Positions 6,219 through 32,120 of a stretch of DNA of 35,197 bases are shown here, one piece after another. Both the position numbers and the translations under genes were made by a program. The notes below the pieces were generated by a model, which was given only the letters and a program-made list of their open reading frames with translations, was not told the DNA's origin and ran no database searches. The first letter of the stretch is position 1, and every line of letters starts with the position of its first letter. This DNA comes from Archaeoglobus sp. Lineage in GTDB: Archaea; Halobacteriota; Archaeoglobi; Archaeoglobales; Archaeoglobaceae. The stretch is from the NCBI GenBank assembly GCA_017656505.1, contig JACDNU010000027.1:1-35197 (forward strand), in the 5' to 3' direction.

Positions 6219-6926
6219 ATGAAATCTGATGCTAATACTGATGCTGATGCTAATGCCGATGCTAATGCTAATGTTAAGAAACTCAAGGTAGGTATCATTC
6301 TAAGAGGAAAAGAGAGAGAGAAGGATGTCGAGCTCATGGCAGAGCATTTCGATGTAAAATCATTCATGCTTCCTCAATTGCCGGAGCTAATTGACGAGCC
6401 CGAAACGTATCTTCCGGATGATGATTTCTACAATGTTGACATGATCGTTTCATATGCAGCCCACCCCGACATCAATCTTGGGTTGATCAGGAAAGCCTCG
6501 CAACACGGAGTGGGTTTGATAATCTTTTCTGGCGGCTCAAAAGCTGGCTCTCCAGTTCAGCTGAAAAAGGAGGCCGAAAAGCTTGGAATCAGGGTGATAT
6601 GGGAGGAGATATGCTGTGCAACCCCGCAGATCGAGGGTTATTCGGAATTCTTCAAATACTTCGGTGCTCCCGAGTTTGAGGTGAAAGTTGAAAATGGCAA
6701 AGTTGTCGATGTAAAGGTTAAAAGAACCGCCTTCTGCGGGGCGAGCTTTTTCGTGGCGGAGAAAATAAAAGGTCTGTCAATTGAGGAGGCCCCAACCAAA
6801 GCCGGCTACTTCACTCAAATCTTTCCATGCTACGCCACGAGGGGGATAGAGGGTGGAATTCACAGGGCGGCGAGAGTTCACAAGAGGGCGATTGAGAAGG
6901 CTATTGAAAAGGCTTTGCGGAAGTAG
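6219..6926 (+). CDS. DUF166 family protein
   Basis: Member of DUF166, an archaeal family found in methanogens and Archaeoglobales and once mislabelled as thymidylate synthase; 235 residues from the ATG at 6219, which follows AGGTGA. After the first 20 or so residues it reads as a conserved domain: VGIILRGK, VSYAAHPDIN, GLIIFSGGSKAGSP, an EEICCATP segment, KRTAFCGASFF, and FPCYATRGIEGGIHRAARVHKRAI. The conserved cysteines (CC in EEICCATP, C in AFCGAS, C in FPCYAT) could bind metal or act in redox; this is inference. Residues 3-17 are a low-complexity Asp/Ala/Asn repeat encoded by hexamers such as GATGCT and AATGCT, not typical of the family. Confidence 0.75.
   Translation: MKSDANTDADANADANANVKKLKVGIILRGKEREKDVELMAEHFDVKSFMLPQLPELIDEPETYLPDDDFYNVDMIVSYAAHPDINLGLIRKASQHGVGLIIFSGGSKAGSPVQLKKEAEKLGIRVIWEEICCATPQIEGYSEFFKYFGAPEFEVKVENGKVVDVKVKRTAFCGASFFVAEKIKGLSIEEAPTKAGYFTQIFPCYATRGIEGGIHRAARVHKRAIEKAIEKALRK
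6227..6276 (+). repeat. In-frame GATGCT/AATGCT hexamer repeat at the DUF166 N-terminus
   Basis: About eight imperfect hexamers (GATGCT, AATACT, GATGCT, GATGCT, AATGCC, GATGCT, AATGCT, AATGTT) encode an Asp-Ala-Asn-Ala tract. The unit length keeps frame, consistent with replication slippage. Confidence 0.85.
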
Positions 6927-6989
6927 AAGTAAATAAGAGAAAGGAAAAATAGGGAAAAGAGTAGGAAAAAAGAAAGAGGAAAGATTAAA

Positions 6990-8162
6990 ATGGGTTTCAG
7001 GCTTTTCAAGAAGGAGAAAAAGAAGGAAGTAGGATTGGAAGAGCTGGAAGAAATTCTGAAAGAGGAGATAGAGGCTCACAAAAGAGAAGTTGAAAGATTT
7101 GCTGAAGAAAACTATTCGAATTTAAAAGAGGCTGTAGAAGGCTTGCTCCACGAAATCGACTCGATTAAGGTTGAAGTTTTACCTCAAAGGCTCAAAGGCG
7201 TTACGAAAAACTTCATCTCGATGATGAGAAAGCAGTGGCAAGTGGAAGAAAAAAATCCTACCGAATTTTTCGAGGAGGTTAGCGGTAGAGCTGCCAAGCT
7301 TGCCGTATCGATGAGGAAAGCCTTTCGGATCATCTTTGCGATAAAGCTTCCAGAGTTTGAAGGGATAAATCAGAAGATTAAGGAGGTTACTTCCATACTG
7401 TCTGCCTACGAGGAAAAAAAGAGTGATCAGAGCATACTAATAAAGCAAGAAATTCTGGAGAAAATTGAGGAGTTAAAGGAGTTAGAACATCTCATCTCAA
7501 AAGCTAAGGATAAGATCGAGAGACTGGAGGTTGAAAAAGTTGAAGGAATTGGAGAGAGCGGAGGGATTGGAAAGACTGGATGGAGTGGAAAGGCTGGAGA
7601 TGCTGAGGAGACCGAGGAGACTGGGAAGACTAAGGGGGCTGAGGAATATCGAGAGAAGGAAGAAGAGTTAAAGAGAAAATTATCGAGGCTTGAAAGCGAT
7701 CTCCAAAAGAAACTTGGCATGGTCAGAAAGCCTCTGAGGATTTACGCCCATATGGTTGGGGAGAGATTGGAGATTGCATCATACAGGGATCTTGAAAGGA
7801 TGAGTTTCCAAAAATTGGCTGAAAAAGCAAGATCGGAAATACTGAAAGGAACTCTTGAGGTCAAAGACTCTCAGAAGGAAGGGATTCTTAAAAGCCTTGA
7901 GTTCATCGCAAGAGGAGAGACAAAGAGAGTTATTGAGGAAATAGATTCTTTGAAAAAAGAGATCTCGGCCTTACAAGCAAAAATAAAAACGATAGAATCA
8001 AAAAAGAGATCTGAGATTATCGGCAAAAAGCAGAAAGTTGAGAAGGAAATCACCTCACTTAGAAGGCAGCTGGAGAACTATGTTCAAAAAAGGAAAAAGC
8101 TCAAGGGCGAGATAAAGAAAATCACCGAATCTCTCCCTTATAATCTTCTCGAAGAAGACTAG
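6990..8162 (+). CDS. Coiled-coil protein of unknown function
   Basis: I do not recognise this 390-residue protein. It begins MGFRLFKKEKKKE and is rich in Glu, Lys, Leu and Ile. Long stretches are predicted coiled coil by heptad appearance (about 10-60, 125-180, 220-250 and 305-380). There is no signal peptide and no membrane segment. A Gly/Thr/Glu-rich low-complexity segment (about 185-215, with GIGESGGIGKTGW and EETEETGKT) interrupts the coils. It lies 63 bases after the DUF166 gene, separated by a purine-rich spacer, and may share its transcript. A structural or scaffold role is possible but not supported by specific evidence. Confidence 0.65.
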   Translation: MGFRLFKKEKKKEVGLEELEEILKEEIEAHKREVERFAEENYSNLKEAVEGLLHEIDSIKVEVLPQRLKGVTKNFISMMRKQWQVEEKNPTEFFEEVSGRAAKLAVSMRKAFRIIFAIKLPEFEGINQKIKEVTSILSAYEEKKSDQSILIKQEILEKIEELKELEHLISKAKDKIERLEVEKVEGIGESGGIGKTGWSGKAGDAEETEETGKTKGAEEYREKEEELKRKLSRLESDLQKKLGMVRKPLRIYAHMVGERLEIASYRDLERMSFQKLAEKARSEILKGTLEVKDSQKEGILKSLEFIARGETKRVIEEIDSLKKEISALQAKIKTIESKKRSEIIGKKQKVEKEITSLRRQLENYVQKRKKLKGEIKKITESLPYNLLEED

Positions 8163-21422: not shown

Positions 21423-22454
21423 ATGGCCAAGATGGAAAGGATAAGGAAGCAGATACTCCAGAATCTCATCGAGCCTAGATCAGTTTACGAGCTGCTGTAC
21501 TTTCAGGACGCAAGTCTGCCAGAGATCTTCGAGTTGCTTAAAACACTGGAGAATGATGGGATAATAAGACTGAGCAATGGAAAAGTTGAGTTGACTGAGA
21601 AAGGGAGGAAAGAGGCGGAAGAAACTAAAGTGAAATACTTTGGCAACATCTACTGCGAGTTTTGTGAAGGAACGGGAATAAGTCTGACAGAGGAATTCTC
21701 CGAAGTTCTTGAAAAGTACAAGGAAATAGCAGCTAAAAGACCGGAGGCGATTGAGGAATACGATCAAGGATTCATCAGCACGAAAGGGGTCATTAGAAGG
21801 GTCGAATTTATCTACGAGCGGGGGGATCTCGCTAACTCGAAAATCTTTGTTGTTGGTGATGATGACCTGCTCAGCATCGCAGCCTCACTTACTGGCTTAC
21901 CATCGAAAATTTTTGTTGTGGATATCGATGAAAGGCTGATTGACTTCATAAACGAAACGGCAAAAGAGCTCAGCCTTCCACTTGAAGCTATGGTTTATGA
22001 TGTTCAGCAGGCTTTTCCAGTTGAGTTGAGGAAGAAGTTTGATGTTTTCGTAACCGATCCGGTTGAGACGATTCCCGGCTTGAAACTTTTCCTTTCTAGA
22101 GGGGTTTCAACGCTGAAAGGCGAGGGATGCTCTGGCTACTTCGGAATCACAACTCTTGAAGCCTCGCGAAAGAAATGGTACGAAATTCAGCGAATGATCC
22201 TTGAAATGGGCTTCGCTATTACAGACATAAGAAGGCACTTCAATGTTTATCCGGAAGAGGACAAGAACTTCTTCAGATTTCAAGAGAAGCTGCCCATAGT
22301 TAAGAAACTCGGTGCCAAAATCGACTTCAACTGGTATAATTCCTCTCTTTTCAGGATAGAAGCAATAACCGATCCAAAACCCCTCGTGGAAGGGGAGATG
22401 AGGATTGATGAGAAGGTTTACAAAGATAGTGAGAGCTGGGCAACTCCCTATTAA
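21423..22454 (+). CDS. bpsA: N4-bis(aminopropyl)spermidine synthase (branched polyamine synthase, BpsA/DUF43 family)
   Basis: Product of 343 residues. An N-terminal winged-helix-like part (about 1-65), a C78xxC81 pair, and a Rossmann-like aminopropyltransferase core follow. The family active-site motifs GDDD (145-148, in FVVGDDDLL) and DPVE (212-215, in VTDPVE) are visible, as is FVVDIDERLIDF (165-175). Known BpsA enzymes of hyperthermophiles add two aminopropyl groups to the central nitrogen of spermidine, making a branched polyamine that stabilises nucleic acids at high temperature. It starts 14 bases after speH, which supplies decarboxylated SAM. This pair implies a hyperthermophilic host. 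Confidence 0.9.
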   Translation: MAKMERIRKQILQNLIEPRSVYELLYFQDASLPEIFELLKTLENDGIIRLSNGKVELTEKGRKEAEETKVKYFGNIYCEFCEGTGISLTEEFSEVLEKYKEIAAKRPEAIEEYDQGFISTKGVIRRVEFIYERGDLANSKIFVVGDDDLLSIAASLTGLPSKIFVVDIDERLIDFINETAKELSLPLEAMVYDVQQAFPVELRKKFDVFVTDPVETIPGLKLFLSRGVSTLKGEGCSGYFGITTLEASRKKWYEIQRMILEMGFAITDIRRHFNVYPEEDKNFFRFQEKLPIVKKLGAKIDFNWYNSSLFRIEAITDPKPLVEGEMRIDEKVYKDSESWATPY

Positions 22455-22524: not shown

Positions 22525-22959
22525 ATGGAACAGAAAATTGCTTTTTCAACGGTAAATGGTGGGCTGGATGATATAGTAACGGAGATTTTCGGAAGATGTC
22601 CGAAATTCACGATTGTTACTGTAAAAGATGGAGATTTTGATGTTGAAATCATCGAAAATTCCTTTGCCACCCATGCAGGTGGAGTAGGGATAGCCGTATC
22701 GCAGGAGCTTGCAAGGAAAGGTGTGAAGGCTGTAGTCACTGGCAGAGTTGGATTCAACGCTATGGAAGTGCTAAAGAAGGCTGGCATCAAAGCTTACAAT
22801 GGAGCAAATCTAAGGGTTGAGGATGCTTTAAAAAAGCTACTCGACGGGAAGCTTCCTGAGATAACCGCAGGCGGGAAAGGCATGGGAGGTATGGGTGGCA
22901 TGGGAGGCAGAGGTATGGGTATGGGCAGAGGCATGGGAAGAGGCATGGGTAGATGGTAA
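22525..22959 (+). CDS. NifX/NifB-fold (dinitrogenase cofactor biosynthesis) protein with Gly/Met/Arg tail
   Basis: Product of 144 residues. The first 110 or so are a dinitrogenase iron-molybdenum cofactor biosynthesis domain (MTH1175/NifX fold): AFSTVNGGLDDIVTEIFGRCPKFTIV, ATHAGGVGIAVSQELARKGVKAVVTGRVG, and AYNGANLRVEDALKKLLDG. Residues 116-144 are a Gly/Met/Arg tail with seven Met, made of GMGG and GRGM repeats. The fold binds Fe-Mo or Mo-Cu sulfide clusters in related proteins. It is the first gene of a five-gene cluster with MinD-type ATPases, as in the ORP (orange protein) operons of sulfate reducers. The Met-rich tail may bind a soft metal such as Cu(I); that is inference. Confidence 0.88.
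   Translation: MEQKIAFSTVNGGLDDIVTEIFGRCPKFTIVTVKDGDFDVEIIENSFATHAGGVGIAVSQELARKGVKAVVTGRVGFNAMEVLKKAGIKAYNGANLRVEDALKKLLDGKLPEITAGGKGMGGMGGMGGRGMGMGRGMGRGMGRW
22870..22956 (+). repeat. GGCATG/GGTATG-type repeat encoding the Gly-Met-Arg tail
   Basis: About ten units of six or nine bases (GGCATGGGA, GGTATGGGT, AGAGGCATG) repeat to the end of the gene. The unit length keeps frame and gives GMG, GRG steps. Confidence 0.85.
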
Positions 22960-23015
22960 ATTTGATGGTGGATGATGGTAAATAGCCGATATTACTAAGA
23001 TACTAAGGGATCCGA

Positions 23016-23840
23016 ATGAGGATAGCAATTGCTTCTGGAAAAGGTGGTACGGGGAAAACGACTGTTGCGGTGAATCTGGCTTACTTCAATAGACTCGATC
23101 TTGTGGACTTGGACGTTGAAGAACCGAATGCATACATATTTTTCAAAAATAAGGATAATGAGGTCAACGAGATCAATGAGATTAGTGAAGACGTGTTCAC
23201 GTTTTTACCAGAGGTTTTGAAGGATAAATGTACCCTCTGCGGCGTGTGTAGGGATGTATGTGCCTTTCATGCCATAATAATCTTCGATGAGGTCGAAATT
23301 CTGAGTGATCTCTGCCACAGCTGTAAAGCCTGCATGTATCTCTGCCCGGAAAAGGCGATAGTCGAGGGAGCGAGAAAAATCGGAGAGATAAAAACGATTG
23401 AGAACGGAATAAAACTCACCTACGGGAGGCTGAGGGTTGGGGAAGCGTCAGCTGTTCCCCTCATCAAGAAAGTGAAGGAGAAAATTGATGCCTCCGGCGA
23501 TGTGATCATTGACTGCCCACCCGGAAATTCTTGTCCTGTTGTTGAATGCATCGAGGACTCAGACTTCGTTATTCTTGTGGCTGAGCCATCTCCTTTCAGT
23601 CTGCACGACATCAAGATCACGATGGAGATTGTGAAGAAAATTGGAGTTAGCTATGGTGTTGTGATAAACAAGCATGGCTTGCCTTTTGACATTGAAGAAA
23701 AGCTGAAAGGTGTTGAGATACTGGGAAAGATACCCTTTTCAATGGATGCTGCTGAAAAATACTCCAAGGGAGAGCTTATGATTGAGTATGAGGGAATATT
23801 TAGGGAGATCTACGACAGAGTTAGGGAGATGATGGGATGA
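23016..23840 (+). CDS. MinD-family P-loop ATPase with inserted 2[4Fe-4S] ferredoxin domain (first copy)
   Basis: Product of 274 residues. The deviant Walker A is ASGKGGTGKTT (6-16), followed by LVDLDVEEPN. Between about 70 and 115 a ferredoxin domain is inserted: C72, C75, C78, C82 and C100, C103, C106, C110. The ATPase resumes with VIIDCPPGNSCPVVECI and VAEPSPFSLHDIKITMEIVKKIG. Such proteins occur in pairs in many anaerobes; in Desulfovibrio they bind the ORP complex. A short Asn/Glu/Ile repeat (NEVNEINEIS, 48-57) interrupts the N-terminal part. It overlaps the second copy by four bases (ATGA). Confidence 0.9.
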   Translation: MRIAIASGKGGTGKTTVAVNLAYFNRLDLVDLDVEEPNAYIFFKNKDNEVNEINEISEDVFTFLPEVLKDKCTLCGVCRDVCAFHAIIIFDEVEILSDLCHSCKACMYLCPEKAIVEGARKIGEIKTIENGIKLTYGRLRVGEASAVPLIKKVKEKIDASGDVIIDCPPGNSCPVVECIEDSDFVILVAEPSPFSLHDIKITMEIVKKIGVSYGVVINKHGLPFDIEEKLKGVEILGKIPFSMDAAEKYSKGELMIEYEGIFREIYDRVREMMG

Positions 23841-24700
23841 GTTTGAAGAGAATCACGGTAATCAGCGGAAAAGGAGGGACAGGGAAAACGACGATAGCTG
23901 CGATGCTGGCATATCTTGCGTCGTTGGAAGGTAGGGTGGTGATATCGGATGCTGATGTGGATGCACCAAATCTACCCATCCTGCTGAAAGTTGAGAGAAT
24001 CGAGACGAAACCATACTACGGAATGCAGAAAGCAAGAATTGATCGGAATAGATGCACCGAATGCGGTCTTTGCGAGGAGATGTGTAGCTTTGATGCAATA
24101 AAAGAGCTAGAGGTCGATCTTAAAAAATGCGAGGGATGCAGACTTTGCTATGAAATTTGCCCAGCGAATGCGATAGAGCTAATTGACGCACAGGCGGGAG
24201 AACTTTACATATCAAATACGTTCATGGGAAAGATTGTTCATGGGCTTCTCTTCCCCGGGGAGGAGAACAGTGGAAAGCTCGTAACTGAGGTGAAGGAGAT
24301 CTCACAGAAAATCGCAGAAAGCGAGGAATGCGATTACCTAATAACCGACGGCCCACCGGGAATAGGCTGCCCTGTCATAGCATCACTAAATGGAACCGAC
24401 GTCGCTGTAGTTGTAGCAGAGCCAACTCTATCGGCAATCTCTGACTTTGAGAGGGTGGTGGAGCTGGCGAGGCGGATGAATATCGAGGTTAAAGCTTTGG
24501 TAAATAAATCCACGATAAATCCCGAACTTACCTTGAAAATCAAAGAATTCTGCGGGGAAGAGGAGATAGAAGTTATTGGAGAGATTCCTTACGATAAAAG
24601 CATAACTGAGCAGATATCAGCCCTTCAATTTCCTTTTAAGGGTAATGCTGCTGAAAAGATTGAAGAATCATGGAATAGGCTGAAGAATGGAATAGATTGA
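23837..24700 (+). CDS. MinD-family P-loop ATPase with inserted 2[4Fe-4S] ferredoxin domain (second copy)
   Basis: Product of 287 residues, paralogous to the preceding gene. Walker A ISGKGGTGKTT (9-19) and VVISDADVDAPN lie at the N-terminus. The inserted ferredoxin has C73, C76, C79, C83 and C98, C101, C104, C108. Then come YLITDGPPGIGCPVIASLNGTD and VAEPTLSAISDFERVVELARRM. The two ATPases share organisation but are diverged and are likely a heterodimer. The gene is translationally coupled to the first copy. No ribosome-independent promoter is evident inside. Confidence 0.9.
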   Translation: MSLKRITVISGKGGTGKTTIAAMLAYLASLEGRVVISDADVDAPNLPILLKVERIETKPYYGMQKARIDRNRCTECGLCEEMCSFDAIKELEVDLKKCEGCRLCYEICPANAIELIDAQAGELYISNTFMGKIVHGLLFPGEENSGKLVTEVKEISQKIAESEECDYLITDGPPGIGCPVIASLNGTDVAVVVAEPTLSAISDFERVVELARRMNIEVKALVNKSTINPELTLKIKEFCGEEEIEVIGEIPYDKSITEQISALQFPFKGNAAEKIEESWNRLKNGID

Positions 24701-24784
24701 GGTGTGGATTAGAATAATAAGTTAGGATAATAAAATAATAATAGATAAAAATATAAAATAACAAAAAAATTGGGAGGTGATTGG
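24701..24784. promoter_or_regulatory. A/T-rich low-complexity spacer before mrp, possible promoter
   Basis: Repeated AATAATA and GATAA units with ATATAAAATA near 24751-24760, ending in the strong ribosome binding site GGGAGGTGATT (about 24772-24782). The TATA-like sequence is too close to the start codon for a normal leader if it drives this gene, so the promoter call is weak. Confidence 0.35.
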
Positions 24785-25564
24785 ATGGCTAAAGGAAAGC
24801 CAGTTGAAATCGAAGAAAAAGAAAAAAGGATAATGGAGAAAATGAAGAAGATCGGAAAGAAAGTTGCGGTTATGAGCGGTAAAGGAGGAGTTGGTAAGTC
24901 GTCTGTGACAGCGATGCTTGCCGTTCATCTCGCGAAGAAGGGCAAGAGAGTTGGAGTATTCGATACCGATTTCCTTGGACCTAGCATTCCGAAACTTTTC
25001 GGACTTGAGGATGCAAGGCTAGGCTTTACTCAGGAGGGCATGGAGCCGGTGACGACGAAGCTTGGGATCAGGGTGATGTCGATTCACTTCATGCTCCCGA
25101 GCAAAGAACAGCCCGTCATATGGCGAGGCCCGATGATCGCGAAAGTTCTGCTTGAATTTCTTGAAAAGGTGCATTGGGGTGAGCTGGATTACTTGCTCTT
25201 CGATTTACCTCCTGGCACCGGTGATGTTCCACTCACGATAATGCAGAGCTCAAAGCCCGATGCAATAGTTGTCGTTACAACTCCCCAAGATCTTGCTAAA
25301 GAAATAGTGGAGAAGGGCGTGAACATGGCCATCCATCTTGGTGTGGATGAGATCCATCTCGTTGAGAACATGAGCTACTTCAAATGCCCGAATTGCGGGC
25401 ATATAAGCTACATTTTCGGAGAAAGTAAGGTAGGCGACCTCACATTAAAATACGGCCTGAATGCTGAGGCAAAGATCCCGATAAATCCGAAAATATCGGA
25501 GCTTGGAGATTCAGGAAAGATTGAAGATCTGAACGAAGATTATTTCGAGGGTATGAACCTTTAA
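24785..25564 (+). CDS. Mrp/NBP35-type iron-sulfur cluster carrier ATPase
   Basis: Product of 259 residues from the ATG at 24785; an in-frame TTG at 24770 would lie inside the ribosome binding site. Walker A is MSGKGGVGKSS (30-40), then GVFDTDFLGPSIP, the switch region DLPPGTGDVPLTIMQ (140-154), and the cluster-binding CPNC (C201, C204) in NMSYFKCPNCGHISYIFG. These proteins hold a bridging [4Fe-4S] cluster and pass it to apo-proteins. In this cluster it probably serves maturation of the neighbouring NifX-fold proteins, comparable with MrpORP in Desulfovibrio, in which both parts are fused. Confidence 0.9.
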   Translation: MAKGKPVEIEEKEKRIMEKMKKIGKKVAVMSGKGGVGKSSVTAMLAVHLAKKGKRVGVFDTDFLGPSIPKLFGLEDARLGFTQEGMEPVTTKLGIRVMSIHFMLPSKEQPVIWRGPMIAKVLLEFLEKVHWGELDYLLFDLPPGTGDVPLTIMQSSKPDAIVVVTTPQDLAKEIVEKGVNMAIHLGVDEIHLVENMSYFKCPNCGHISYIFGESKVGDLTLKYGLNAEAKIPINPKISELGDSGKIEDLNEDYFEGMNL

Positions 25565-25582
25565 ACTTAGGGGGTGGGAGAC

Positions 25583-25969
25583 ATGGCGATAAAAGTTGCA
25601 ATTCCGTGTATGGATGATAGGGGGTTGGATTCCTTCGTTTCCCAACATTTTGGAAGGGCGAGATACTTCTACATTGCCGAAATTGAGGACGGAGAGATTA
25701 GGGGGGAAGTCGTGGAACTTCCTTTCGAAGACCACATGCCGGGCGACATTCCGAGATTCCTTCAATCTTTGGGAGTTGACACGGTTCTTGCATATGGTCT
25801 AGGAATGAGGGCTCAGACTTTCTTCAACCAAATGGGGATCAGAGTTATCACGGGAGCGTATGGGAGTGTTAGGGAAGTTCTTGAGGGTTTCCTTAAGGGC
25901 AGCCTTGTTCTCGATGAGAGATGGGAGGAAAGGGAAGACTTTCGAAAGCACGAGGGTTGTAAAGATTAG
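25583..25969 (+). CDS. NifX/MTH1175-fold protein (ORP-like)
   Basis: Product of 128 residues. The dinitrogenase-cofactor fold shows as VAIPCMDDRGLDSFVSQHFGRARYFYIAEIEDG, PGDIPRFLQSLGVDTVLAYGLG and AYGSVREVLEGFLKGSL. It lacks the Met-rich tail of the first gene and has a charged tail ending KHEGCKD. The ATG at 25583 follows GGGGGTG (about 25570-25576); an in-frame GTG at 25574 would sit inside that site. It is the last gene of the cluster and convergent with the ABC-2 permease. By position next to mrp it is the better candidate for an ORP-like metal-cluster protein. Confidence 0.87.
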   Translation: MAIKVAIPCMDDRGLDSFVSQHFGRARYFYIAEIEDGEIRGEVVELPFEDHMPGDIPRFLQSLGVDTVLAYGLGMRAQTFFNQMGIRVITGAYGSVREVLEGFLKGSLVLDERWEEREDFRKHEGCKD

Positions 25970-25972
25970 AAA

Positions 25973-27010
25973 TTAAATTCTAACCATCTTTTTTGAGACG
26001 AAGAGCAGCAGGATTCCCAAAGCAAAATAAAGAGGCACAACTTCTATTCCAAATTCGGTTCCGGCTGCAAGCCTTGAGATTAGAGAAGATGGGGTCAGGG
26101 GATGGATGAAGAGAACAGGAATTATGCCGATGGTAACGAGTGAGAAAACGAGCTGGGATCTTTCTCTGTCTTTGAAGAAGGTGACTATGAAGGCTGAGAC
26201 TGAAATCATCAGGAAGGAAAAGGAGTAGGCTATCGATAATACCAGGAAAAAGTTGTGTATCTCTACGCCATTCAGCATCAGCAAAAGGAGCCAGAGTGGA
26301 GTAAGGATTACTGGCAGCAAAATTGCAGCCAAGATCTTTCCTGAAACTATTTCATCCTTTTTGCAAGCTGCAAGCAGCAAATCAATCGTTCCTGTCTCTT
26401 TTTCTTCCGTTATGAGATCGATGAAAAGACCCGAAGCAATAACTGCTGTTGTGATCATCATCAACGGGATCAGAACAACATAGATGAACTTGAACACCAT
26501 CGAAATGCCATTGGGGATTATGAGCTCCTCACCACTTGCAGAATAAACGAAAAGCTTTCCACCTGCCGGCATACCCCTTAGCTTTCTTAAGTAGTCTTGG
26601 TATTCGAGCAGCTTCTTCTTCAGGATTATCGATGCCTGAATCGATTTAACCTCATCTCTCGGGAGAAAAATTTTAACGTAGTTCGAACCCTTGGTGAGGT
26701 TTTCCTTTGGCAGCCACAGGATAACATCGATTTTTCCAGCGTAGAAGTCGTAAAAGGCATCGTTGAGCGAGGCATAGTGCTTTCCATCAAAGAAAGATTG
26801 TAGAATCGGTGCATCCCCGGCAACTCCTATCTTCAGCTCGTTCTCAAAAAGAATGTTCAGATAGGTGGGATTGTAGAGAATCAGGAGGCCGAAGGTAAGA
26901 ACGGAAGCGAAGGAGGCTACGAAGATTAAAAGAAGGATTACGCTCACAAAGGTTCTTTCCCTGAGCATACTTCCTAGGTCTTTCAGGGCTATGGCAACCG
27001 ATACCTTCAA
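25973..27010 (-). CDS. ABC-2 type transporter permease
   Basis: Product of 345 residues. One membrane segment is near the N-terminus (about 20-50: VSVILLLIFVASFASVLTFGLLI), followed by an extracytoplasmic domain of about 130 residues and a cluster of five or six membrane segments at the C-terminus with EEKETGTIDLLLAACKKDEIV, the ABC-2 intracellular coupling motif. It starts at TTG 27010, whose TTGA overlaps the stop of the upstream permease, with GGGAGGTG (about 27018-27025) as ribosome binding site. It forms an exporter with the fused permease and the divergent ATPase, similar to NatAB-type systems. Confidence 0.85.
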   Translation of the reverse strand: MKVSVAIALKDLGSMLRERTFVSVILLLIFVASFASVLTFGLLILYNPTYLNILFENELKIGVAGDAPILQSFFDGKHYASLNDAFYDFYAGKIDVILWLPKENLTKGSNYVKIFLPRDEVKSIQASIILKKKLLEYQDYLRKLRGMPAGGKLFVYSASGEELIIPNGISMVFKFIYVVLIPLMMITTAVIASGLFIDLITEEKETGTIDLLLAACKKDEIVSGKILAAILLPVILTPLWLLLLMLNGVEIHNFFLVLSIAYSFSFLMISVSAFIVTFFKDRERSQLVFSLVTIGIIPVLFIHPLTPSSLISRLAAGTEFGIEVVPLYFALGILLLFVSKKMVRI

Positions 27011-28713
27011 ATCCTCACACCTCCCAGAGCTAGCAGAATTCCATAGTCATAGATGAAATGCACTACCACAGCAGTGCTAAATGCAATGGCGTAGCTTCTT
27101 TTCCTTATCAGAAACGCAAAACAGAAGAGGGTTAGTAAGTGCAAAGCCAGAGGCAGGAGCAGATAGCTTGCAAGCAAGAGATCCATGTAGTTTCTTCCTA
27201 TTTCAATCAGCGCAAGAATCTTTTCTCCGGCAAAGAAGCCTACCGCAGTCAAAACGGAAGCTGCTAATATCCCGGAGTTCTTATAGGAGTTCTTGTAGGC
27301 AGCGTAAACTATGGATGTTTTGAAGAGCTCCTCCACCAAAGAAATTCCGAGGATGAAAACTGCTATGGATAGCTGTAAGGGCATCGTGAATATGATTGAA
27401 ATCAGCATGAATTCAGCGATGAAAACGAATGGTATTGATAGTATTGAAGCGAAAAGGCAGTGCAAAGGACTTTTTATCCATTTTCGGAGGGTGAGTAAGA
27501 CCTTCCTTTCGATTGAGTCCAGATACATAACTTCGGCATCCATCATCCTGATGGAAATGAAGGAAAGAACCGCAAAGAGAATGTAGAACTGGGAGGTTGA
27601 GAGAAGGTAGTCGCTTAAATCCAATTCTCCAGTCTCGAAAAGTATTAGCATGTTGGTGATCGGGGAGATCTTCGAAACGGGAATGGTGCCTGAGAATATG
27701 GCCGGAATAAAAAGATAGGCTGTTATGATGAAGGATGAGACCATAATGAGAAAAGTCATTTCCTTGTAACTCCTTGAGAGAAAGACTATGCAGGCTTGGA
27801 GTGAGAAGGCGAAGAGGATAAAGGGGAGGACAAAAAGAATAGCTAGTAAACTCTCTTTTAGCAAAAAAGAGGTTGAAATTATGAATAAAGAGGAGATAAC
27901 AAGGTAAGGAAGGAGTTTTCCGATGTAAATCTCAATTGGCTTTAGGGGAGTTGAAAGCAAAACGTCAAGCCTTCTCAGCGTTTTGTCTTCGAGCAAAGAA
28001 GCTGAGAAAAGCTGTATCGTAAAGTAGGAAGGAATTATGAAGAAGAAAGCAAGGACCATCTTGCTCAGCAAGCTCTGGGGGTTAAAGTCTTCCGGAATCG
28101 TGTAACCCGTTTTCTGCTTAATCGGGAGATTTGATTGAGGGGAGGTTAGCTTGTTCAGGGACTCTTTAATTATTTCCTCCCCTTTTCCGACCTTGCTTTC
28201 ACCTTCTGGGATCACATCATACTTTTTAATCTCAGGAATGGAGAGGTTTTTAATGCTTGGAACGCTCACTTTTTCCCTCTCCAGAAATTCTGCCTTCACA
28301 AAAACTGGAAAAGCTTCGGATCCAAATCTTTCGTAGAGCTGGAACTCATAGTTTTGCTTTACAAGCTTTCTCAACTCATCCACAGCCGCCAAAGACTTGT
28401 CCGTTCCAGTAATAATAGCCTTGTAATATCCATTGCTGTAGGTAAGATGCACGTCCGAATTCTTTGAGTTAAGGAATCTGTAGTCGTTGATCTGCATTCC
28501 AGAAACTTCATAGAGGTAGGAATCGGATCTCATGCCGAAACCAACGGAAAAGTAAAGCAAGGAGATTGATACTAGTGAGATCAGAATCAAAATGAGAAAT
28601 GAAGTTTTTGAGTATTTTTTCCTCGATTTTTTTAGTTCGATGGATGAAACCCTGAAAATTTTGAAAATTCTGGAAACTCTGGGTAGGTGCCTGCTGTGTT
28701 TACTCATCATCAT
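27007..28713 (-). CDS. ABC-2 permease fused to a PrsW-like intramembrane protease domain
   Basis: Product of about 568 residues. Residues about 40-390 are an ABC-2 permease: a first membrane segment, a large extracytoplasmic domain, then several membrane segments around LLEDKTLRRLDVLLSTPLKPIEIYIGK. The C-terminal 170 or so add further membrane segments with PrsW/CPBP-type signatures: E461-E462-x-x-K465 (VEELFK), GFFAGE (E497), a His at about 525 (ALHLLTLF), and HFIYD (H552, D556). These correspond to the catalytic set of glutamic-type intramembrane proteases. The ATG cluster at 28713/28710/28707 is chosen over an upstream in-frame TTG because it lies about 26 bases from a TATA box (28730-28737). 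Substrate unknown. Confidence 0.8.
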   Translation of the reverse strand: MMMSKHSRHLPRVSRIFKIFRVSSIELKKSRKKYSKTSFLILILISLVSISLLYFSVGFGMRSDSYLYEVSGMQINDYRFLNSKNSDVHLTYSNGYYKAIITGTDKSLAAVDELRKLVKQNYEFQLYERFGSEAFPVFVKAEFLEREKVSVPSIKNLSIPEIKKYDVIPEGESKVGKGEEIIKESLNKLTSPQSNLPIKQKTGYTIPEDFNPQSLLSKMVLAFFFIIPSYFTIQLFSASLLEDKTLRRLDVLLSTPLKPIEIYIGKLLPYLVISSLFIISTSFLLKESLLAILFVLPFILFAFSLQACIVFLSRSYKEMTFLIMVSSFIITAYLFIPAIFSGTIPVSKISPITNMLILFETGELDLSDYLLSTSQFYILFAVLSFISIRMMDAEVMYLDSIERKVLLTLRKWIKSPLHCLFASILSIPFVFIAEFMLISIIFTMPLQLSIAVFILGISLVEELFKTSIVYAAYKNSYKNSGILAASVLTAVGFFAGEKILALIEIGRNYMDLLLASYLLLPLALHLLTLFCFAFLIRKRSYAIAFSTAVVVHFIYDYGILLALGGVRI

Positions 28714-28729
28714 GATTTTCAGAAGTGTC

Positions 28730-28738
28730 AAATATATC
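28730..28738. promoter_or_regulatory. Shared divergent TATA box of the ABC exporter
   Basis: AAATATATC is centred about 25 bases from the minus-strand ATG cluster (28707-28713) and 22-25 bases from the plus-strand ATG pair (28755, 28758). One element seems to drive two leaderless divergent transcripts. Confidence 0.5.
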
Positions 28739-28754
28739 AGTATTCAAAAACCTC

Positions 28755-28808
28755 ATGATGAAGACCATGAAGACTACAATGAAGACACAGAAAACTACTG
28801 CGGTGTAA
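28755..28808 (+). CDS. Possible 17-codon leader ORF before the ABC ATPase
   Basis: Encodes MMKTMKTTMKTQKTTAV and stops (TAA 28806-28808) three bases before the ATG of the ATPase, in the same frame. GGTG (28802-28805) inside its end is the ATPase's ribosome binding site. The Met/Lys/Thr repeat looks like slippage-derived sequence. The TATA box position makes its first ATG the likely mRNA 5' end. Coding status is unproven. Confidence 0.35.
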   Translation: MMKTMKTTMKTQKTTAV

Positions 28809-28811
28809 ATT

Positions 28812-29654
28812 ATGCAAGCCGTGCACGCTTTGAAGGTTTCGGGAATCAAAAAGAGTTACGGAGACTTTCCCGCCCTTAAAGGCATGGATATGGAGTTAAA
28901 GAGAGGTGAAATTGTCGGCCTGATAGGGGAGAATGGGGCTGGAAAGTCGACTTTCCTTAAAATCCTTGCCGGACTGCTCGATCCAGATTCAGGTAGCGTC
29001 GAATACTTTGGAATGGATTTTTTCAAGAATAAAGACCAGATAAAGAAGAGAATCGGTTATCTGCCCGAAACCGACTCTCTCTATGGCAACATGAACGCCA
29101 TGGATTATCTTAGATTTTTCGCATCGCTTTATTCTGTTAATGAGTGGGAGAATAAGGCGTCATCCCTTTTGGAAATGCTGAATCTTCCAAAAGACAGGCT
29201 CATCGAGGGATTCTCAAAAGGAATGAAGCGGAAGCTGTCTATAGCCAGGAGCTTAATTCACGATCCAGATGTTCTGATCTACGATGAACCTACAGGCGGT
29301 TTGGACCCTTCCACTTCCCTCTTCATATCGAATTTTCTAAAGCAGCTGAAAGAGAAGGGCAAAAGTATCCTCTTCTCGGCCCACAACATGTATTACGTTG
29401 AATCAACATGCGACAGAATAATCATTCTTAAAAAAGGAGAGGTTCTATACAGCGGTGAAATCGAAGATCTAATGAAAATCTCAACGAAATATCTGATAAA
29501 CTACATGGAAAATGGAGTTAGAAAATCCATCAGGATTGAGGGTGAAGAGCTCAACCCCTTCATTCAAGAGCTGGCGGAGAAAAACGCAAAGGTTTTGGAT
29601 ATCATCAAGGAAGTTCCGAGGCTTGAGGAGGTTTACTTCAAAATAATCGGTTAA
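28812..29654 (+). CDS. ABC transporter ATP-binding protein
   Basis: Nucleotide-binding subunit of the exporter, 280 residues. Walker A is GENGAGKST, the signature motif is FSKGMKRKLSIARSL (an SKGM variant of LSGGQ common in ABC-2 exporters), and Walker B with catalytic Glu is VLIYDEPTGGLDP. The H-loop is in LFSAHNMYYVE. The C-terminal part (ISTKYLINYMENGVRKSIRIEG and so on) is the usual regulatory extension of drug/Na-type exporters. It is transcribed divergently from the two permease genes. The exported substrate is not evident. Confidence 0.92.
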   Translation: MQAVHALKVSGIKKSYGDFPALKGMDMELKRGEIVGLIGENGAGKSTFLKILAGLLDPDSGSVEYFGMDFFKNKDQIKKRIGYLPETDSLYGNMNAMDYLRFFASLYSVNEWENKASSLLEMLNLPKDRLIEGFSKGMKRKLSIARSLIHDPDVLIYDEPTGGLDPSTSLFISNFLKQLKEKGKSILFSAHNMYYVESTCDRIIILKKGEVLYSGEIEDLMKISTKYLINYMENGVRKSIRIEGEELNPFIQELAEKNAKVLDIIKEVPRLEEVYFKIIG

Positions 29655-29715: not shown

Positions 29716-31980
29716 TCAATCACTATCCTCTTCATACGGTGTTGTGAGCACTTCCTTTATCTTTCTAGCCGTTTTCTTCCCAACCTTTGGAACCTTAACG
29801 AGATCCTCCTCACTTGCGTTAACGATGTTCTCAATCGTTTTGAAATGTTTTAGGAGATTTCTTGCAATGACAGGCCCGATGTTGGATATGGCAGAAACTA
29901 TATACTCTTGCTGCTCCTTTAAACTCCTCTTAGTTTTTCCAGAGTGCAGTGTAATTTCTCTCGATTTAATTTCCTGCTCCCTTTTGGCTATAGCGAGTAG
30001 AATTTCTGCCGTTTCCTGCTGCGATTTCGTTTGAATAACGGGAATGCCCAGATCGACTACTATCGCAGCCAAAGCACCTCTTATCGCGTTAGGGTGAATT
30101 CTGCCGTAGAGTTCGCCTTCTATGATCAGAAGCGGCCGGAGATAGCTCTTTCTCAAGCTTAGAAGCTGTGAAAAAAGATCTCTTTCTCCTTTGATAAGGC
30201 TGTTGATGAAATCTTCAGCAGTCTTCCTTTCTACAGCCACCCTATCGCTCAGAACGTAATCTGCAACCTCCAAATTCTTTATCTTCAGCTCTGCTTTGGA
30301 GTAGAGTTCCTTGACAACTCCGCTCTTCATCTCTCTAGAATCAACGTAAATCAAGAGGTTCTTCGTCTCTTTTGCCTCAGGTTTCTCAGACTTTTCGAAG
30401 TCGAAAAGGGTAACTTGCTCCCTTTTCCTAAGATTCTCTCTTATGCGATATATCTGGTCGTACATGAGCTTTTCCTTTCTCAGACTGCTCCAGTAGTATG
30501 CCTCATCTCTCGTTCCCTTCGTCATTAGAACGATTATCTTTCCCTTCCTCGTCCTCCCCGTCCTTCCCTTTCTCTGGATTGCTCTTATCTCTGATGGAAC
30601 AGCCTCGTAAAAAACCACAAGATCCGTGGCTGGGATGTCAAGCCCTTCCTCGCCGATTGATGTAGCGATCAAAACGTTGATTTGGCCCTCCCGAAACTTC
30701 GATACCACCTCTACCTGCTCCCTCTGCCTCATCCCTTTATCGTCAACCCTATTCGACTGCCCTATGAACTTCGAAGCTCTAACGCCGTCAATTTTGCCCA
30801 GCTCATTCACCAGCGTTTCAGCGGTGTCGCGATAGCTGCAGAAGACGATAATTCTTGTATCCTTCTTGATCTCCTTAGAAATTATTTCTTTCAGCTTTTC
30901 TAACTTGGGATGGTCAACTTTGCAGCTCAAAGCCTTCAGCATCGCTTCTCTGAAAACCGCATCACTCAAAAGATTTTTTGCTGCTTTACTCCCACCTCTT
31001 GCTTTTCCCTCCTTGATGAGTCTTCTCAGGTAGTTTTTTACCGCCTCGATCCCCTGCGTTTCGATCAGCTCTATACCATGGGAAATCTTCAGGATCTCGG
31101 CCATAACCGATATCGCTTCGAAAATGGAAGGATCCTTGCTTTCCATTGCCTCAGCATGCATAGCCTCTTGCAAGGCAAGAAGTTCCCGCTTCGAAAGCTC
31201 GGGACTTGCAGCAAAGCCCAAGCTTTCGAGTTTCTTGAATCGAAGCTTGATCGCTTTCTCGAATTTCTCCCTTACTTCCTTTAGTTCGGCAGGCATATCT
31301 ACTTTTATCCAGTCTATCTTCCTTTCGTGGATGTACGGCCTGACATCGCTGTCGTACTCAGTTCTAATTTCTATCTCCTCTATTCCGAGATTCTCCACAA
31401 CTTCGCTAATCCTCTCGATATCACTCCCGGGAGAAGCGGTTATTCCCAAAATAAGGGGATTTTCTACCTCCTCTAAATACCTCTTTGCGATGAAAACGTA
31501 GGAGTAATTCCCAACGGCTCTATGGGCTTCGTCGAAAGTTAAATGGATTACGTCTTTCAAGGAAAATCTTCTCGCCACGATGTCATTCTCTATCACTTGT
31601 GGAGTAGCAACGATAACCCTGGCTTTTTTGTAAAGTGCCTCCCTTTGTTCCGGCGGATTCTCACCGGAAAGAGCTATAATTTCCTCTTTATCGATTCTCA
31701 GGTTTTTTCTCAGAAAATCTGCATGCTGTTCAACCAGTGGTTTTGTGGGAGCGAGAAACAAAGCTTTTCCATCCAAGTTAAGCAGTCTTGATGCGATAAC
31801 GTATAAGGCGATTACAGTCTTCCCCAAACCGGTTGGAAGGACTACGAGGGTGTTCCTAATTAAGGCTGTTGCAGCGATTGAAACCTGATAGGCTCTTCGC
31901 TCTATCGCCTTTTCCTTGATAAAGGGGTGACTGATGTATTCGATGTCAGTGAGGGCGAAGCTTGAATCCAAACTCTCCAC
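29716..31980 (-). CDS. hef: Hef-type (FANCM/XPF family) helicase-nuclease
   Basis: Product of about 754 residues. The N-terminal SF2 helicase has the Walker A PTGLGKTVIALYV, DEAH box (FDEAHRAVG), and motif VI (AIQRKGRTGRTRKG). The ERCC4/XPF nuclease follows: DSREMKSG, then VAVERKTAEDFINSL, the catalytic ERKxxxD. A C-terminal helix-hairpin-helix pair reads NIGPVIARNLLKHF and VPKVGKKTARKIKEVL. Hef processes stalled forks and flap structures. The start is GTG at 31980 because a minus-strand TATA box lies 24 bases upstream; a longer in-frame reading to an ATG at 32076 adds 32 residues (MPSLSPFCVIIPNRL...) not seen in the family. Confidence 0.92.
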   Translation of the reverse strand: MESLDSSFALTDIEYISHPFIKEKAIERRAYQVSIAATALIRNTLVVLPTGLGKTVIALYVIASRLLNLDGKALFLAPTKPLVEQHADFLRKNLRIDKEEIIALSGENPPEQREALYKKARVIVATPQVIENDIVARRFSLKDVIHLTFDEAHRAVGNYSYVFIAKRYLEEVENPLILGITASPGSDIERISEVVENLGIEEIEIRTEYDSDVRPYIHERKIDWIKVDMPAELKEVREKFEKAIKLRFKKLESLGFAASPELSKRELLALQEAMHAEAMESKDPSIFEAISVMAEILKISHGIELIETQGIEAVKNYLRRLIKEGKARGGSKAAKNLLSDAVFREAMLKALSCKVDHPKLEKLKEIISKEIKKDTRIIVFCSYRDTAETLVNELGKIDGVRASKFIGQSNRVDDKGMRQREQVEVVSKFREGQINVLIATSIGEEGLDIPATDLVVFYEAVPSEIRAIQRKGRTGRTRKGKIIVLMTKGTRDEAYYWSSLRKEKLMYDQIYRIRENLRKREQVTLFDFEKSEKPEAKETKNLLIYVDSREMKSGVVKELYSKAELKIKNLEVADYVLSDRVAVERKTAEDFINSLIKGERDLFSQLLSLRKSYLRPLLIIEGELYGRIHPNAIRGALAAIVVDLGIPVIQTKSQQETAEILLAIAKREQEIKSREITLHSGKTKRSLKEQQEYIVSAISNIGPVIARNLLKHFKTIENIVNASEEDLVKVPKVGKKTARKIKEVLTTPYEEDSD

Positions 31981-31999
31981 GGATGAAGGAAGGCTGGAG

Positions 32000-32009
32000 A
32001 ATATAAAAG
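32000..32009 (-). promoter_or_regulatory. TATA box for hef
   Basis: On the minus strand the region reads CTTTTATATTC, centred about 24-26 bases from GTG 31980, without a ribosome binding site between. This indicates a leaderless GTG start. Confidence 0.55.
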
Positions 32010-32120
32010 GTTTAAGGGGTCTCTGAAAATGAAGACGATTAGGTATGATGACACAAAAAGGAGATAATGATGGCATTTCAGAACGGACTCACTTTCCTTT
32101 AGCCATGTAGACAAAGATGT

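Follow-up and report, generated by a model that had tools for sequence, protein, structure and literature searches.

What would an archaeal cell do with a single polypeptide that joins an exporter permease to an apparent intramembrane protease? This question is raised by the gene that we call permW, at 27007..28713 on the minus strand of the window, the whole 35,197-nucleotide stretch of Archaeoglobus sp. DNA analysed here. Read directly in the window, permW is one uninterrupted open frame of 568 amino acids beginning with ATG at 28713, and a further possible start, TTG, lies upstream at 28731. The original prediction, that an ABC-2 permease and a C-terminal set of protease signatures share this frame, describes a real fusion. 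An ABC-2 permease occupies residues ~11-390 and is followed by a five-helix PrsW-type domain at residues ~406-568. The permease half (27544..28683, minus strand) consists, in the AlphaFold2 model, of an elbow helix, TM1, an extracellular domain, and TM2-TM6, and its Pfam match to ABC2_membrane_3 is above the cut-off (E 4.7e-8, residues 188-361 of the 574-aa form). The PrsW-type domain, with its five TM helices (27010..27498, minus strand), is supported by hhalign, PF13367, and the model. The AlphaFold2 models of the whole permW (mean pLDDT 84.7, pTM 0.80) and of the protease domain (pLDDT 92.2, pTM 0.88) are both confident. In Foldseek, the ABC half finds its best PDB fold match in 8k1n, an ABC efflux pump from a mycobacterium (probability 1.00, E 4e-3), and the whole-permW model matched an ABC exporter alone, weakly. 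Solved structures searched by sequence with the profile of the full family gave no match at E 1. The nearest named relatives of permW are Archaeoglobales/Archaeoglobus sequences.

The family of the C-terminal domain had to be approached through the relatives of permW. The window sequence by itself falls below the PF13367 and PF02517 thresholds, with no Pfam or NCBIfam match in the C-terminal domain; because these single-sequence scans were empty, we used family-level tests. Across the 99 related genomes searched, the C-termini of six orthologues (in G092, G080, G061, G066, G088, and G002) passed the curated PF13367 cut-off, and 22 of the 59 C-terminal domains of the permW family matched PF13367, with a best E-value of 8.9e-8, so that the domain search proposed with the original prediction does yield a PF13367 match at the level of the family. 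Matches to PF02517 (CPBP) were weak and confined to 2 of the 59 members. When the family profile of the domain was aligned by hhalign with a profile of 27 standalone archaeal PrsW proteins, the probability was 97.6% (E 1.8e-11, 163 columns) with the motifs in register, in comparison with 2.0% against CPBP and 0.2% for a control with the ABC half. The CPBP identity is ruled out by this 2.0% and by EExxK, instead of EExxxR, in all copies. A PrsW-type rather than a CPBP domain, as originally suspected, is thus supported, an assignment that the window permW receives through the PF13367 matches of its orthologues and the agreement of the profile-profile comparison, and not through its own sequence.

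Four motifs, given here in the 568-aa numbering, occupy four consecutive TM helices of permW, all on the minus strand. Motif 1 (E461-E462-x-x-K465, TM8, 27319..27333), motif 2 (F493-xxx-E497-K498, TM9, 27220..27237), and motif 3 (H525, TM10, 27139..27141) are invariant in both sets of sequences compared (49/49 and 59/59). In motif 4 (H552-xx-Y555-D556, TM11, 27046..27060), the His and Tyr are invariant and the last residue is Asp or Asn, reading HxxYD in the window and HxxYN in most relatives. In total, E461, E462, K465, F493, E497, K498, P521, H525, H552, and Y555 are identical in 49 of 49 permW orthologues. The motifs described for PrsW are EExxK, HxxxD, and one more active-site His, which type II CAAX proteases do not have (PMC4602095); H525 corresponds to this extra His. 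Shuffling the C-terminal 170 residues 200,000 times did not once reproduce the order and spacing of the motifs. Moreover, the motif pattern is carried by 119 of the 944 ORFs of at least 250 aa in the cassette loci, a number equal to that of the orthologues. In the model, helices 446-474, 479-508, 512-538, and 541-564 each carry one motif near the midpoint, which would place the motifs at the same depth in the membrane. This bears indirectly on the meeting of Glu and His that the original prediction proposed to check by structure prediction.

The seed of the public-genome survey of permW came from the ABC half (the pattern [SAY]RS[YF][KR]E...), which made the survey blind to the protease motifs. 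Nevertheless, the EE..K/F...E/H/H...[DN] pattern is intact in all surveyed relatives that are not cut by a contig end, and the stricter form, with EK and Y, is present in 30 of 30 loci checked from the phylum search. As the motifs are never lost in a survey of this kind, selection appears to act on catalysis and not just on the fold. After motif 2, the fused family always shows EK (FxxxEK) whereas standalone archaeal PrsW proteins mostly show EN (FxxxEN); EK is a subfamily signature of the fused family.

The survey of other archaea proposed with the original prediction shows how widespread the fusion is. Of 394 Halobacteriota genomes, 201 have the permW protease domain (190 of the 322 good ones), nearly always as one copy, so that the fusion is not confined to this archaeon but reaches about half of the genomes sampled in the phylum. 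Among the matches listed, every intact copy of the domain is inside a long fused frame; the short frames with the domain in those matches comprise one decayed relic in G003, 169 aa long, and two frames that are truncated at or near contig ends. Since the intact copies listed are always fused, and usually one per genome, the two activities seem to be obligately coupled. In the 99 related genomes, permW orthologues were found in 50, in addition to one decayed copy. The carriers belong to Archaeoglobi, Methanophagales, Methanoperedens, Methanomicrobiales, and Halobacteria, include cultured methanogens and haloarchaea, and are separated in the tree largely along those groups. All 80 permW loci among the matches listed are from Halobacteriota, and 63 further relatives exist beyond those listed.

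The permW gene forms a cassette with a second permease gene and an ATPase gene. The second ABC-2 permease, permB (25973..27010, minus strand; ABC2_membrane_3, E 3.7e-13), overlaps permW by 4 bases, and the ATPase subunit of the DrrA/NatA type (28812..29654, plus strand; ABC_tran, E 1.2e-31) diverges from permW across a common intergenic region of 98 bases (28714..28811), read directly in the sequence. PF12698 is above the cut-off in both permW and permB, as is PF00005 in the ATPase. The gene permB is directly downstream of permW in 120 loci, the two overlapping or touching in most of them, and the ATPase gene is divergent in 93 of 97 loci. An ATPase orthologue is present in 47 of the 50 genomes with permW and in 1 of the 49 without it (Fisher p 2e-23 with genomes counted as independent and shared ancestry ignored), and the exceptions are incomplete or contaminated assemblies. 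Where the ATPase gene is not adjacent, as for example in the genus of G035, G019, G008, and G028, the genome encodes an unmistakable orthologue elsewhere (54-56% identity), whereas genomes without permW have only ATPase paralogues of 39% identity or less. In that genus, which also includes G040 and G049, the ATPase gene is gone from the cassette and unrelated genes are in its old place. The family memberships and gene linkage suggest that permW and permB combine with the divergent ATPase into a single heterodimeric ABC-2 exporter, whose export would be ATP-driven as in the rest of the family.

No fourth gene, whether for a substrate, a regulator, a membrane-tethered transcription factor, or a small ORF, is conserved beside permW in the cassette loci, and the 98-base gap and the overlapping permease genes leave no room for a substrate gene within the cassette. 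In the window, MinD/NifH-like ATPases and NifX-like small proteins (22525-25969) are encoded between permB and a bpsA-like aminopropyltransferase gene (21423-22454), which directly adjoins permB in many Archaeoglobaceae. Polyamine genes (bpsA and S-adenosylmethionine decarboxylase-like) were considered as a clue to the cargo and rejected; they are beside permB in many Archaeoglobaceae but do not track the cassette outside the family. On the other side, a Hef-like helicase-nuclease gene (29716-32076) directly follows the ATPase gene on the opposite strand.

The computed features, namely the fusion, the family of its domain, its invariant motifs, and the linked subunits, are best fitted by a general machine that cleaves and extrudes membrane peptides, a tentative reading to which we give a probability of roughly 0.4. 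The obligate fusion, the invariant catalytic motifs, and the absence of a cargo gene lead to this choice. We infer that permW is proteolytic and that both of its halves act on one substrate: the protease domain would act inside the bilayer on membrane anchors or hydrophobic peptides, cutting them into fragments that the ATP-driven pair of permW and permB would remove or export. Spent signal peptides, TM stubs, and tails of surface proteins are the candidate substrates. The co-occurrence of the ATPase with permW, even when it is encoded elsewhere, counts for this reading, and a substrate gene that is not conserved near the cassette is as expected for a general substrate pool. The earlier idea of an exporter that cleaves its own substrate is plausible, but a dedicated leader peptide or anti-regulator is a less likely substrate, given that the neighbourhood of the cassette shows no conserved gene for either and that there is no room for one inside. 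Somewhat more doubtful is the fullest version of the proposal, in which one polypeptide, being both a subunit of an ATP-driven exporter and an intramembrane glutamic protease, couples cleavage to the extraction of fragments and provides Halobacteriota with a general route for membrane-peptide disposal or peptide signals.

A functional precedent for the cleave-and-extrude role exists in bacteria. In Staphylococcus aureus, the intramembrane protease Eep and the exporter EcsAB are both required for the processing and secretion of lipoprotein signal-peptide fragments (PMC7157817). The loss of EcsAB impairs intramembrane cleavage by RasP, for which a membrane "cleaning function" has been proposed (PMC2996298). 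The precedent is functional only, since Eep and RasP are S2P-type proteases and EcsAB belongs to a different permease family. Two points count against the reading. Of the 99 relatives, 90 have the signal peptide peptidase (PF06550) regardless of permW, so signal-peptide clearance has another candidate, and about half of the Halobacteriota genomes are without the cassette. A separate proposal, that permW substitutes for the signal peptide peptidase, is ruled out by the near-universal presence of the latter.

Transport-coupled signalling is an unlikely alternative: the protease domain would sense the state of the exporter, such as cargo, toxic peptide, or lipid stress, and make the first cut in a membrane-tethered regulator. 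The archetype, PrsW of Bacillus, acts in this manner as the site-1 protease that first cuts the anti-sigma factor RsiW in stress signalling. However, the cassette is accompanied across loci by neither a regulator gene nor a gene for a membrane-tethered transcription factor, and archaea are not known to have sigma/anti-sigma pairs. The fused exporter could itself serve as the sensor, and elsewhere in bacteria PrsW domains occur joined to sensor domains (PMC3482391).

It is less probable that the C-terminal domain is non-proteolytic, being a structural or substrate-presenting module like APH-1 or the CPBP-like LnsB, or a site of other chemistry. Both proteins are examples of a co-opted fold (PMC7387801). 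Within the superfamily, the permW protease domain is matched best in Foldseek by human APH-1 (5a63_C, probability 0.69, TM 0.55, E 1.8, not significant), chain C of 5a63 being APH-1A (PMC7387801); the match is compatible with the CPBP/PrsW/APH-1 fold but falls short of proof. The FxxxEK form of motif 2, set against the FxxxEN of most standalone archaeal PrsW proteins, would also suit a changed role. Yet APH-1 and LnsB have lost the catalytic motifs, which are intact in every complete permW copy examined.

Slightly less probable again is a dedicated processing exporter, in which a single peptide, bacteriocin, or surface protein loses its leader or tail to the protease and is secreted by the ABC part. 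CPBP relatives do handle such substrates, as in the cutting of C-terminal sorting tags by myxosortase (PMC11980579). Against this, neither a small ORF nor a cargo gene is conserved, the cassette is too tightly packed to hold one, the distribution looks housekeeping-like, and no association of permW with the presence of archaeosortases (PF09721) is visible across genomes. A chance fusion or assembly artefact without shared function, for which we found no supporting point, has a negligible probability, as the same fusion recurs in about 200 genomes from many families and independent assemblies.

Comparisons with known systems indicate what is particular to permW. The closest known architecture is the NCBIfam family NF041647 (ABC_perm_CPBP), in which an ABC-2-type permease likewise carries, at its C-terminus, a glutamic intramembrane protease from the CPBP/PrsW/APH-1 superfamily, but its protease is CPBP (EExxxR) and that of permW is PrsW-type (EExxK and the extra His). 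None of 60 genomes exceeded the curated NF041647 cut-off (435 bits), and the matches were to separate ABC or CPBP halves alone. With PrsW of Bacillus subtilis (PF13367, MEROPS M82), permW shares EExxK, FxxxE, the TM His, HxxxD/N, and probably a four-helix core; it differs in being fused to an exporter, in having five TM helices in the domain instead of about eight, and in the EK of motif 2 in place of EN. Published PrsW fusions involve toxins and PilZ, cyclic-nucleotide-binding, FHA, and Zn-ribbon domains (PMC3482391), and we found no description of a PrsW-ABC fusion in open-licence papers. In the Gram-positive Eep/RasP and EcsAB/PptAB systems, an intramembrane protease and an ABC exporter are likewise jointly needed and the substrate is absent from the operon, but these are separate proteins, with an S2P metalloprotease and a different permease family. 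NatAB/DrrAB-type ABC-2 exporters share the DrrA/NatA-related ATPase and ABC2_membrane_3 permeases, whereas the permW cassette has two different permeases, one with a protease, and in most loci a divergent ATPase gene.

Almost no substrates or partners are known for archaeal membrane proteases, and the function of the Haloferax PrsW-like protein was listed as unknown in a 2022 review (PMC9263693). With permW, about half of the Halobacteriota sampled have a protease in lasting physical union with an exporter, usually in single copy, so that the question of whether intramembrane cleavage and ATP-driven fragment removal are one process can be put to a specific genetic test. If the cleave-and-extrude reading is true, permW would be a one-chain solution to the task that bacteria give to Eep plus EcsAB. 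The fusion also accounts for a frame whose annotation, in a Haladaptatus homologue (the one annotated record examined), reads no more than "ABC transporter permease subunit".

Remnants of the cassette are preserved in two genomes of the same genus. In G003, a decayed second cassette (L066, contig C39, about 6755-7303) has lost ATPase residues 1-252 and permW residues 1-405, and what is left of it, the end of the ATPase, the protease domain, and a permB with a frameshift, shares 70-81% identity with the window; this genome also has an intact, more distant cassette (43%). In the single-contig genome G005, which is without an ATPase orthologue, small stop-interrupted remnants of permW and permB lie at about 793,000 of contig 1 (L082). 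The window genome itself also encodes a canonical standalone PrsW in a 225-aa frame (L001, G000:C36:28389-28889), located downstream of a mannose-phosphate guanylyltransferase-like gene.
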